Below are positions 21,946 through 25,598 of a DNA stretch of 64,000 nt, piece after piece. The stretch lies in the NCBI RefSeq assembly GCF_904846225.1, contig NZ_CAJGZJ010000011.1, positions 1 through 64,000 of the forward strand, written 5' to 3'. Position numbers and translations under genes: made by a program. Position 1 is the first letter of the stretch; each line of letters begins with the position of its first letter. This DNA is from Psychrobacter immobilis. Lineage in GTDB: Bacteria; Pseudomonadota; Gammaproteobacteria; Pseudomonadales; Moraxellaceae. The notes under the pieces were generated by a model. That model had not been told where the DNA came from. It worked only from the letters and a program-made list of their open reading frames with translations, and ran no database searches.

Positions 21946-22731
21946 ATGAGCCAGTTCCATCATTCTACAGACGCTGCTATCAAACATGACACCTTATTTA
22001 CCACACCGCTCGATAAAGCGGCGCGTTTTTCCTTTGATGAGCAAGTAGTGGCGTGTTTTCCCGATATGATTCGCCGCAGTGTTCCCGGTTACGGTCAGGT
22101 ATTGGCCATGCTGCCTATCTTTGCCCGTCGTCACTGTAAGTATCGCCAGCAGGATGATAATGGTCAGCGCGTCAGTCGCATTTATGATTTGGGCTGCTCG
22201 CTTGGTGCGGCAAGTATGACGTTGGCTGGTGAATTCGATCCGCAAGATTTACAGATCAAGGCGATTGATATCTCACCAGCGATGACGACTGAGGCGACGA
22301 CTTTATTGAGTGATCATTATCCTGAGCACGATATAGAAGTGATTACGGCTGATATTCGTGATGTGGAGCTTGAATCGTGTGATATGGTGATTTTGAACTT
22401 AACGTTACAGTTTTTGCCAGCAGCCGATCGAGTGATGGTGTTAGAGAAAATTTATGCCGCGTTAAGCGAAGGTGGCATACTAGTATTGACAGAAAAGACG
22501 CATGCGTTTGATGAACAATATGATGCGTGGTTGGTTGAGCGTTATTACGACTTTAAGCGCGCCAATGGTTATACCGAGATGGAAATTAGTGGCAAACGTA
22601 ATGCACTAGAGAATGTCCTGATTACCGATACCTTAGATGAACATCATGCACGGCTAGATCAAGTTGGTTTTGAACGTCATCTGACATGGTTTCAGTTTTT
22701 GAACTTTGTCTCTATTGTGGCGTTTAAATAG
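21946..22731 (+). CDS. cmoA: Carboxy-S-adenosyl-L-methionine synthase CmoA
   Basis: Makes carboxy-SAM from SAM and prephenate; CmoB then uses it to form cmo5U34 in tRNA. The 261-aa protein has [15 protein letters not shown] (about 75-90, cofactor loop), [23 protein letters not shown], and the N-terminal [22 protein letters not shown] family motif. In most relatives cmoB follows immediately, but here it is 1.8 kb away, beyond a KAP NTPase gene. Confidence 0.95.
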
Positions 22732-22805
22732 GGTGGTTTAAATAACTTGTAGGAGCTGATTTCGCTTTTCGCTATTATCTGCTTGTTTGCATGAGGCGAT
22801 AGGCT

Positions 22806-22854
22806 AAGGCTTGGCGCGTCTCTTGCTTCGCGAGACACCCCAAAGCCAAGCCTT
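22806..22854. repeat. GC-rich hairpin upstream of the KAP NTPase gene
   Basis: Outer stem AAGGCTTGGC/GCCAAGCCTT and inner stem GTCTC/GAGAC surround a short loop. It lies between cmoA and the KAP gene, is much more GC-rich than that gene, and may be a terminator-like or boundary structure of the insertion. There is no T tract, and it is not related to the other repeats of the window. Confidence 0.6.
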
Positions 22855-22976
22855 CGCAGCTCATACATCCAAACAGGATAGACGCTGCAATCGAGGCTAG
22901 CGGGGACATCGGGTTTTTGCCTGTATTTATCGTTGTTAAAGAATGTTTTATTTTAAGAGTTACAAGGAAAGATAAA

Positions 22977-24326
22977 ATGGATATGGATATTACAACAAAA
23001 ACGTTTGATGAACGTGATGAGTTTCAACGTGAAAGTATCGCTGAAAAAGCTATTAAGCTTCTAAAGTCTGATATAGATATTTCACCAATGGTCATCGATG
23101 GCAGTTGGGGTACAGGTAAAACTGAGTTTTGCCATAAACTTATCAATCTGATGAAGGAAGATAGTACACACAATATAATTTATATTGACGCTTTCAAAGC
23201 TGATCATGTTGATGAGCCTTTGATGACTGTACTCGCAGAAATTATTAAAATCTTACCTGAAGGTCCACGTAGAAAGGCTTTTATAAATAGAGTATTACCA
23301 GCTGTACGCTATACTCTCAAAACAGTTGCTAAAGCTGGTGTTTCTCATCTTCTGAGACAAGACTTTGCTGATATTGCAAATGATTTTGATGAAGTAATTC
23401 AAAAAGCAGTTGACGATTCAATAGATAAAACAGCAGAGTTAATACTAAAAGATCATGTAGAGGCAGAAAAGAGTTTAAAAACATTACAAACCGCTCTAAC
23501 TGCCATTGCATCCCAAGATCCTATTATTATATTTATAGATGAACTAGATCGCTGTAGACCAAACTTCGCGGTCGACATGCTCGAGATAATCAAGCATACG
23601 TTTGATGTACCAGATGTTAGCTTCGTGCTTATTACTAATACGCAGCAATTGAAAGCGTCTATAAATCATTGTTATGGTCAGGCAGTTGATGCACAGCGTT
23701 ATTTAGATAAGTTTATTAAGTTTCGATTTGAGTTATCTTCTCTTTCTAGTAGGGGTTATCAATCTCCTGTTTTAGCTTCTAAACAGCATTTTTTCAACCT
23801 AGCGTCAGAAAAAAAGTGTTTGCCTGCTGATTATTTAAACGATAATTATTTTAAAGCAGCGATTGAAGATTTAGTTCGCTATCGCAGTCTATCTCTTAGA
23901 GAGATAGAGACATTGATTTTACATATACAAATTGCACAGACTCTATCTGAATCAGCAATATTTTCTGAACAACAACATTTAGGTTATAAGCTGCTCCGAT
24001 TAATTGGCATCTTATTAGTATGTTATAGACCAGAGCTATTAGATCAAGTTAAAAAAGGAATTATTGATGCCAAGTTATTGGGTGAATTTTTAGGAGTTAA
24101 AAAGCTCCCTACTTTTGAGTCAAGTGTAGGTGTACCAAAGCCCTTCGAAGTGATTATGTTTATTATAGCTAAGGGTTGTACTGAAAATGCTGAGTGGTAT
24201 AAGCCGTCGGAGGGGAAAAAAGAACTTTGGGAATCATATGAGAGTGGTTTTATGGGAAATTTTCCAGTTCCTCACAAAGCAATAAATGAAATTATAGAAA
24301 CAGCAAATATAATGGCGTTCGAATAA
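22977..24326 (+). CDS. KAP family P-loop NTPase
   Basis: A 449-aa ATPase of the KAP family. Walker A is GSWGTGKT at 42-49, and Walker B is IIIFIDELDRCRP at about 183-195 with the KAP-typical ELDRC. VSFVLITNTQQLKASI follows, then YLDKFIKFRFELS. No transmembrane segment is visible, unlike many KAP proteins. ATG at 22977 is chosen because AAGGAAAG precedes it; an upstream TTG lacks support. KAP ATPases occur in phage exclusion and defence systems such as PifA and Qat, but the function here is inferred only from the family. It is more AT-rich than its neighbours and splits the cmoA-cmoB pair, so it is probably acquired. No partner gene is beside it. Confidence 0.85.
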   Translation: MDMDITTKTFDERDEFQRESIAEKAIKLLKSDIDISPMVIDGSWGTGKTEFCHKLINLMKEDSTHNIIYIDAFKADHVDEPLMTVLAEIIKILPEGPRRKAFINRVLPAVRYTLKTVAKAGVSHLLRQDFADIANDFDEVIQKAVDDSIDKTAELILKDHVEAEKSLKTLQTALTAIASQDPIIIFIDELDRCRPNFAVDMLEIIKHTFDVPDVSFVLITNTQQLKASINHCYGQAVDAQRYLDKFIKFRFELSSLSSRGYQSPVLASKQHFFNLASEKKCLPADYLNDNYFKAAIEDLVRYRSLSLREIETLILHIQIAQTLSESAIFSEQQHLGYKLLRLIGILLVCYRPELLDQVKKGIIDAKLLGEFLGVKKLPTFESSVGVPKPFEVIMFIIAKGCTENAEWYKPSEGKKELWESYESGFMGNFPVPHKAINEIIETANIMAFE

Positions 24327-24515
24327 TATATAAGTTTAAACCTTAGGATTGGGTAATAACGAAACGTAAACTGAGTTATTAAAGAACACCGACCTATGCC
24401 TCGCATATTTGCCCACTTTTAAAGCACTCCAATCTCGAGGCTCATCTTTTTTTCTTTACTTTCACTCTTTTCATTATTATCCATTTAAATAACAATCAAC
24501 ACGGTAATCCGCTTT

Positions 24516-25598
24516 ATGCTCAACGACACTATCATCCACGCCGAACGCGAACTGTATTTAACCTTGTTAGAGCTCGCCCAGCAGCAGCCGAGCGCCTATG
24601 AGTGGCTGACGCAACTGCCCACGTGGTTAAATGATATCAAGGACAAAGCCAACTATGCGCATGCGCCTGCTTACCAAGCGTCGGTAGCACGTTTGCCAAC
24701 ATTAGCCGTTGATAATGTAGATTTGGACAGTGATATATTGACGATTAATGCGCCCTTAAGTGACTCTGAGCGCAAACAAACCATGGCGCTATTAAAGCAA
24801 CTGATGCCGTGGCGCAAAGGGCCTTTTCAGATTGGCAGTCAAGTCGAAAATCAAATTGATAGTGGTCAGAATGAATACCAACAAGCCGCACCAATTCTCA
24901 TTGATACCGAGTGGCACAGTGATTGGAAATGGCAGCGAGTTGCACCGCATTTAGGAAATTTAAAAGGTCGGCGTGTATTGGATGTCGGCGGCGGCTCCGG
25001 TTATCACGGTTGGCGTATGGCAGGGGCTGGCGCGGATACAGTGATTATCATTGATCCGTCTTGCTTGTTTTATCATCAGTTTATGGCGATTCGTCATTTC
25101 GTCGGTAGCGGCGATACTCATGCTCATGGTACAGGCCGTTATCGTACCCATTATATTCCTGTGCCATTAGAAGCATTGCCTGAGCATAGCCAGCTATTTG
25201 ACACCGTGTTTAGTATGGGCGTGCTCTATCATCGTCAGTCACCTTTTGAGCATTTGCAGCAACTCAAAGGGCAATTGGTAAAAGGCGGTGAGTTGGTACT
25301 TGAAACCTTGGTCATTGAAGGCGATGCCAATACTGTCCTCGTGCCGCATGATCGCTATGCGCAAATGAATAACGTGTATTTTTTACCGTCAGTCGCCGCA
25401 TTAATCGGCTGGCTAGAAAAGGCTGGATTCTCAGACGTGCGCTGCGTCGATGTAGCCGTAACCTCGATTGAGGAACAACGTAAAACAGAATGGATGACTT
25501 ATCATTCGTTAGCCGATTTTTTAGATCCGAATGATGCTAGCAAGACACTTGAGGGCTATCCTGCACCGATGCGTGCCACGTTAATTGCCAAAAAGTAA
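24516..25598 (+). CDS. cmoB: tRNA U34 carboxymethyltransferase CmoB
   Basis: Transfers the carboxymethyl group from carboxy-SAM to 5-hydroxyuridine at the tRNA wobble position 34. The 360-aa protein has LMPWRKGPFQI (about 92-102), LIDTEWHSDWKWQRVAPHL, the cofactor loop RRVLDVGGGSGYHGWRMAGAG (about 150-170), VFSMGVLYHRQSPFEHLQQLK and PVPLEALPE, all matching the family. It works in sequence with CmoA, from which it is separated by the KAP gene. The ribosome site is weak. Confidence 0.95.
   Translation: MLNDTIIHAERELYLTLLELAQQQPSAYEWLTQLPTWLNDIKDKANYAHAPAYQASVARLPTLAVDNVDLDSDILTINAPLSDSERKQTMALLKQLMPWRKGPFQIGSQVENQIDSGQNEYQQAAPILIDTEWHSDWKWQRVAPHLGNLKGRRVLDVGGGSGYHGWRMAGAGADTVIIIDPSCLFYHQFMAIRHFVGSGDTHAHGTGRYRTHYIPVPLEALPEHSQLFDTVFSMGVLYHRQSPFEHLQQLKGQLVKGGELVLETLVIEGDANTVLVPHDRYAQMNNVYFLPSVAALIGWLEKAGFSDVRCVDVAVTSIEEQRKTEWMTYHSLADFLDPNDASKTLEGYPAPMRATLIAKK

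Follow-up and report, generated by a model that had tools for sequence, protein, structure and literature searches.

PifA of the F plasmid, a KAP ATPase that excludes T7, is a single-gene exclusion system acting by abortive infection. Many KAP NTPases have a membrane-spanning insertion in the P-loop domain, as an optional feature. RdrA, of RADAR, forms a heptameric AAA+ ring; its helical insertion follows strands β2 and β3, and its C-terminal lobe is helical (PMC9994260, accessible sections). The PDC families originate in a guilt-by-embedding screen of Payne and colleagues, as described in the accessible sections of PMC12988326, according to which most PDCs are without experimental validation. 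Small hotspots of anti-phage systems are found in P2-like phages and P4 satellites, and an anti-phage hotspot lies between cI and integrase in Vibrionaceae (Rousset et al., PMC9122126, accessible sections). The term KAP does not occur in the accessible text of PMC12839542, PMC9519451, PMC13092281 and PMC12111858, nor the whole word in that of PMC9122126. In the literature searched, no mention of the name PDC-S20 was found, and no paper combining Psychrobacter with a hotspot or with cmoA.

The locus compared here with these systems belongs to Psychrobacter immobilis. The window is the whole stretch of DNA that was analysed (64 kb); the features are given in Table 1. The flanking methyltransferase genes are named cmoA and cmoB by interpretation of their Pfam matches. 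The interval between them (22732-24515) is larger than the KAP gene, which is its sole gene and has the same direction as both flanks; besides it, the interval contains no second ORF of at least 80 aa. The first-pass annotation, made from the sequence alone, had described this gene as an AT-rich KAP ATPase with intact Walker A and B separating cmoA and cmoB, and the description holds on all these points. The ORF encodes 449 aa from its ATG; an alternative upstream TTG (22917) would give 469 aa. Pfam KAP_NTPase (PF07693) matches residues 18-322 of the protein (197.3 bits, cutoff 20), and the PADLOC PDC-S20 profile matches residues 3-447 with its positions 1-447 of 450. G45, G47, K48 and T49 (Walker A) and D188-C193 (Walker B) are invariant in 32 relatives. 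R308 is likewise an invariant arginine and could be sensor 2. The GC content is 35% (GC3 24%) for the KAP gene, 45% (44%) for cmoA and 48% (47%) for cmoB; across the 64 kb, 2.7% of the segments of 1347 nt are as AT-rich as the KAP gene.

Table 1. Features of the cmoA-cmoB interval and its flanks (positions in the window).
Feature	Positions	Strand	Basis
cmoA, left flank	21946..22731	+	Pfam Methyltransf_25; homologue in 104/105 genomes
Flavo-1-type dispersed hairpin repeat, 122 nt	22752..22873	-	RF01705 match at 22754-22902, minus strand
KAP-family NTPase, 449 aa	22977..24326	+	Pfam KAP_NTPase 4.5e-58; PADLOC PDLC04956 (PDC-S20) 4.2e-175
Conserved ATPase half, residues 1-253	22977..23735	+	8 close homologues average 90% identity to the window
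Walker A, residues 42-49	23100..23123	+	Motif GSWGTGKT
Predicted helical insertion between Walker A and Walker B, residues 97-180	23265..23516	+	AlphaFold2 model, hydropathy
Walker B region, residues 183-196	23523..23564	+	Motif, DELDRC at 188-193
Variable C-terminal half, residues 254-449 (lid-like part, then helical module)	23736..24323	+	56% homologue identity, model
Dispersed repeat, about 75 bp, between KAP stop and cmoB	24379..24457	+	Genus-wide matches
cmoB, right flank	24516..25598	+	Pfam Methyltransf_9 5.9e-121 / DUF1698; homologue in 104/105 genomes

No membrane segment is predicted in the protein by a 19-residue Kyte-Doolittle scan of its whole length: the best mean is 1.23 overall and reaches 0.81 in the stretch separating the two Walker motifs. 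The first-pass annotation was thus right that a transmembrane insertion is lacking. It had also regarded this as less common for the family; the lack looks normal for the subfamily, in which one of 32 PDC-S20-type relatives reaches 1.6 between the two motifs. Twelve of the 32 reach 1.6 in the C-terminal half and the window protein does not. Since the membrane insertion is an optional trait, its absence does not bar membership of the KAP family.

The window protein fits PDC-S20 from end to end, with no difference found, and is a further member of this known candidate family. The same profile also fits the scanned relatives from E. coli prophages, from Neisseria and from the rbgA-mutY site described below. 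Likeness to PifA is confined to the ATPase part: the PADLOC PifA profile hits residues 14-254 (1.1e-17), but this profile is 720 long, is matched at 17-254 only and leaves the C-terminal half of KAP unmatched. QatA also has a KAP ATPase half; the NCBIfam QatA model, however, gives 36.2 bits against a cutoff of 600, and the neighbours in the window are cmoA and cmoB, not qatBCD. No effector domain was recognised in KAP.

The predicted fold appears nearest to that of RdrA. The full AlphaFold2 model is of moderate confidence (pLDDT 76.5, pTM 0.51) and its insertion (97-180) of low confidence (residues 115-158, pLDDT <50). In VIA-align 2, the best seven structural matches are RdrA (Z from 18.6 down to 14.9); the top one covers 282 residues at an rmsd of 4.3 Å over KAP residues 1-350. 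ORC/Cdc6 (about 13) and BrxC (12.3) come after RdrA. Foldseek also places RdrA first, with low TM-scores (0.34-0.47). The traits that KAP would share with RdrA are an AAA+ core, a helical insertion between Walker A and B, a helical C-terminal part and an invariant arginine (R308 in KAP, the possible sensor 2). RdrA nevertheless has about 800 aa against 449, at about 15% identity; no RdrB adenosine deaminase gene lies beside the window KAP gene, and a KAP ring is hypothetical. A sequence search of solved structures with KAP gave weak Pex1 matches only. The C-terminal half modelled alone (255-449) has a pLDDT of 88.6. Its residues 263-329 (lid-like part) align weakly with part of the RuvB/RFC chains (Z no higher than 4.6), and searched alone against the PDB this half has no match at E≤0.001. 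Such weak matches of a model are no proof of a new fold.

The cmoA-cmoB interval was compared in a genus set of 105 genomes, 102 of which have cmoA and cmoB co-directional on one contig. The gap is 48-86 bp in 59 of these, 144 bp in 2, 160-600 bp in 5 and at least 600 bp in 36. A rough control gap, from cmoB to its downstream neighbour, is 28-178 bp in 23 of 30 loci and unmeasurable in 7; as the top cmoB matches, these loci come from close relatives. KAP homologues (E≤0.001) are found in 26 of the 105 genomes. Three of the 102 have KAP between cmoA and cmoB: the window genome (G000), G010 (94% identity) and G075 (broken frames). An additional, distant homologue (33% identity) lies near a contig end in the window genome (contig C7:213-959, L002).

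Forty-one intervals were inspected: all 36 of at least 600 bp, three of the five with 160-600 bp, and two that are short. The commonest cargo (by eye) is a protein of about 187 aa, of which the single copy scanned has no Pfam or PADLOC match. The intervals also contain a reverse transcriptase of a type VI retron (RT_VI 9e-77), overlapped by a gene that is HTH-like by eye (G028, L071:876-2118); a GmrSD-like enzyme (G055); an FRG protein (PDC-S15, 4e-102; G102); a VapC-like protein, under the curated cutoff in G077 and likewise present by eye in G078; and a PAAR protein (G097). A 795-aa protein is the lone large ORF in G004 (L066:282-2669), with a similar one by eye in G002 (L067); the one copy scanned is matched by no profile of Pfam, PADLOC or NCBIfam. 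In G096 (L062:404-2624), the interval has an operon of three genes (357, 149 and 231 aa) without Pfam or PADLOC matches; by eye it recurs in G050 (L063), with the first ORF split. Both the 795-aa protein and the operon are defence candidates by location. Three of the 36 long intervals (G029, G076, G101) have no ORF of 90 aa. PADLOC, run on 20 non-KAP cargo proteins, matched four, three strongly and one weakly (Specificity_I, 1.5e-5), and gave no match for the other 16. L061, an interval of 11.9 kb, contains a GmrSD-like gene and, by eye, a CobU-like gene, together with four ORFs of 519-536 aa that resemble one another and have signal-like N termini.

The site between cmoA and cmoB is a genuine hotspot; KAP is exchangeable cargo in it, and some of the other cargo is defence-like too. 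A hot spot had been proposed in the first-pass annotation, together with a comparison of the interval across the genus; gap sizes and cargo do vary over the 102 genomes, and KAP, present at the site in three of them, is not syntenic in all relatives.

Two dispersed repeats border the KAP gene. The GC-rich hairpin that had been noticed ahead of it is real: the 122-nt element outfolds all 200 shuffles on both strands (z -3.1 on plus, -5.3 on minus). The complete 246-nt leader of KAP folds unremarkably (z -1.0; 32 of 200 shuffles fold at least as well). The window copy scores 37.8 bits with Rfam Flavo-1 (RF01705) on the minus strand, under the gathering threshold of 42; in the repeat set, seven of ten loci reach the threshold and two have no match at E≤0.01. 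Flavo-1 RNA has been described mainly from Bacteroidota. In Psychrobacter (L140-L145, L148) it is a dispersed element with a large apical insertion. A search for the hairpin at other loci, which the first-pass annotation had proposed, finds the element or part of it (some matches 20-40 nt) in 41 of 105 genomes at E≤0.001, at many sites; the homology extends to 22928-22941. Among the 41 inspected intervals, the hairpin occurs in those of G000, G012, G026, G029 and G097, whose contents differ, and no match was found beside the same KAP gene in G010 and G075. Present with varied cargo and absent beside KAP in these two genomes, it is, judged by this distribution, tied to the site and independent of the KAP module, of which it had been thought a part. 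A role as KAP-linked regulator is rejected on the same grounds.

The repeat on the 3′ side was searched within a 176-nt query, which has matches in 54 of 105 genomes; in G011, G015, G068, G074 and G089 they lie only or nearly only outside the repeat. The repeat alone is found in 14 other cmoA-cmoB intervals of the 41 (one match spans 28 nt only), where it lies 3′ of the cargo. Elsewhere (L151-L170), it occurs in an hsdS-hsdR gap, downstream of tkt-like genes and, inverted, at valS-like genes (names given by eye). An attachment site specific to KAP is rejected, the repeat being found 3′ of unrelated genes and inverted at valS-like ones; a general intergenic repeat is the better reading. It may provide shared homology for cargo exchange, or act as a terminator.

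A scan of the genome contigs gave 37 KAP loci. In 19 of them, the six ORFs closest to KAP on each side include hsd-like genes, and in 12 of the 37 HsdR is the next ORF; the other 18 lack an hsd-like ORF within this range, some owing to a contig end. HsdM, HsdS and a YgjP metallopeptidase are confirmed by Pfam in L106, and HsdR in L109. The remaining hsd labels come from BLAST to proteins of L106, L117 and L102, or were given by eye. This context resembles guilt by embedding; the candidates covered in the accessible sections of PMC12988326 are, however, embedded in Hma and not in hsd operons. Four Psychrobacter hsd operons also include a 330-aa ORF 139 nt 5′ of KAP (L102:8870-9862; Mrr-like by Pfam in L102).

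The seven nearest Psychrobacter kin outside cmoA-cmoB (G019, G021, G029, G050, G057, G083, G088; 68-76% identity) all occur together with hsd genes; the G083 locus is truncated by its contig end. In five of these kin, the DNA similarity to the window begins 12-13 nt 5′ of the start codon; in G029 it begins 19 nt 5′ of it. Five of the seven lose the similarity near codon 376, four of these regain it over the final 12-15 codons, and it ends about 2 nt past the stop codon, G021 excepted. In a tree that handles the gene as one unit, though it is possibly recombinant, the window copy and that of G010 group together (100/100) within a six-row set (100/98), itself within a nine-row set (100/99); all other rows of both sets are Psychrobacter copies embedded in restriction-modification (R-M) operons. 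Next come two embedded Shewanella copies and a copy from a Saccharophagus MAG without hsd genes nearby. On the simplest reading of these sequences, the lone state of KAP would be derived. The lone gene probably descends from one that lay in a type I R-M operon, flanked by hsdS and hsdR, and probably moved as a gene-sized piece via homologous recombination. The latter is proposed because no integrase or transposase gene accompanies KAP; a mobile element with its own recombinase is rejected, no further ORF of at least 80 aa being present between cmoA and cmoB.

The history of the gene appears to differ between its halves. In comparison with the embedded copy of G019, the window has 95% nucleotide identity in the first part (residues 1-253) and 57% in the second (254-449); in comparison with the lone copy of G010, it has 91% and 96%. 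At discriminating sites (window identical to one of these copies and not to the other), the N half favours G019 over G010 by 43:13 and the C half favours G010 over G019 by 236:9. The binomial p for 43:13 is 7e-5, with sites treated as independent. Against other embedded copies, the N half favours G010 (40:34 for G088, 46:30 for G050); the exchange signal therefore rests on the G019 comparison. The pattern of G088 and G050 is as would be expected if the ATPase half of the window were closest to that of G019. These sequences suggest that the gene does not have a single history and that lone and embedded copies may exchange ATPase halves. Computed for every pair among nine copies, dN/dS ranges from 0.03 to 0.12 in the first part and from 0.11 to 0.49 in the second, with many dS >1. 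The gene thus appears to be under purifying selection, with a freer C-terminal half for which positive selection is unproven.

KAP is also carried as a single gene at other sites. A second Psychrobacter subfamily (L012-L023 and L028; 13 loci; 39-46% identity), of which the one member scanned is PDC-S20, lies 3′ of an rbgA-like gene in all 13 loci (names by eye). A mutY-like gene is directly next in nine, a contig end in two and another ORF in two. In the 96 genomes with rbgA and mutY on one contig, their gap is at most 300 bp in 16 and more than 600 bp in 76, and contains the second-subfamily KAP in 11; it is variable like cmoA-cmoB. In Neisseria (L126:8006-12376), a lone PDC-S20 gene parts the neighbouring RNA-modification genes mnmG and rsmG, and in L114 a lone KAP gene lies between dinB and an M20 peptidase gene.

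Matches are found in 106 of 5426 E. coli genomes, every one chromosomal; query coverage is 80% in only 14, and family membership was checked for only some. The two E. coli relatives compared have 43% and 40% identity to the window (PDC-S20 2e-173 and 1e-176). Twelve E. coli loci were inspected (H25, H27, H31-H39 and H41; H26, H28, H29, H40 and the unlisted ones were not). In all twelve, KAP is a single gene amid phage genes (prophage) with no R-M genes adjacent: it lies between CI repressor and integrase in seven and between holin and antiterminator Q in five. The context is similar to the P2/P4 prophage hotspots in the accessible sections of PMC9122126, but the cmoA-cmoB slot has no phage or integrase gene beside KAP. 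KAP also lies 3′ of primase-helicase-like genes in Salmonella enterica subsp. houtenae and near a transposase on an Enterobacter plasmid. Relatives are rare on phage records (4 of 50,697) and plasmid records (23 of 72,556; E≤1e-20).

The explanation judged likely is that the window KAP is a stand-alone PDC-S20 candidate anti-phage ATPase, RdrA- and PifA-like, carried as hotspot cargo and descended from an R-M-embedded gene. With kin in R-M operons and in E. coli prophages, it is probably a one-gene virus-defence protein. The single-gene defence module of the first-pass annotation accordingly gains a family, R-M operon kin and prophage cargo in E. coli, and its function stays that of a candidate, named from sequence. 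The conserved ATPase half would oligomerise in the manner of RdrA or another AAA+/STAND switch. A phage product or an infection state could be recognised by the variable C-terminal half, and ATP-driven assembly would then halt infection, most plausibly by abortive infection as with PifA. A broader reading is tentative: PDC-S20 might be a portable, partnerless defence ATPase that joins a conserved ring engine of the RdrA type to a C-terminal sensor open to exchange, and that is remixed by homologous recombination. Recombination would shuttle it among type I R-M operons, cmoA-cmoB, rbgA-mutY and prophage hotspots, and a single ATPase would both sense the phage and end the infection.

It is unlikely that the lone KAP is an orphan accessory fragment of type I R-M, needing R-M in trans or persisting as a decaying passenger. 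Its nearest kin do lie in hsd operons, and the copy of G075, a genome with a 92% HsdR match elsewhere, has broken frames. These may be an assembly error, because cmoA and cmoB of G075 are broken or cut too. The frame is, however, intact in the window and in G010, outside any hsd operon in the window; the single HsdR query used, which has matches in 72 of 105 genomes and which a very different HsdR could escape, finds none at E≤1e-30 in either genome. Action in trans with a resident type I R-M system is rejected on this result. As two of the three lone-KAP genomes are without an HsdR match, the protein probably acts alone. The low dN/dS also speaks against this alternative, and so does the occurrence of KAP as a single gene, with no R-M genes adjacent, in E. 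coli prophages and next to rbgA in Psychrobacter.

PAAR and VapC-like proteins are also hotspot cargo, and association with R-M suits any foreign DNA; KAP could thus guard against plasmids, natural-transformation DNA or rival bacteria, and the hotspot could be a general conflict locus. This is improbable: single-gene carriage in temperate phages, for example between CI and integrase (compare the anti-phage genes reported for a Vibrionaceae phage in the accessible sections of PMC9122126), points first to phages. Still less credit is due to a housekeeping or stress ATPase tied to the interrupted tRNA wobble-modification genes. The Neisseria relative between mnmG and rsmG would suit such a tie. 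The products of mnmG, cmoA and cmoB all act on wobble U34. Yet KAP is at cmoA-cmoB in only 3 of 102 genomes, unrelated cargo is found there elsewhere, and other KAP copies adjoin hsd, prophage, mutY-like or dinB genes; this tie is very improbable, and a one-gene anti-phage ATPase is the reading kept here.

To the known family are added here the cmoA-cmoB slot, the likely R-M-embedded descent, the domain exchange and the prophage copies. None of the four was found in the literature searched, which does not include the preprint naming the PDC families; they may be published. PDC-S20, an unvalidated family, gains independent context from R-M-embedded, prophage-borne and hotspot-borne copies of one protein. 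E. coli prophages and Psychrobacter supply natural single-gene constructs. The conserved engine and the variable C-terminal half hint at where phage specificity may lie.
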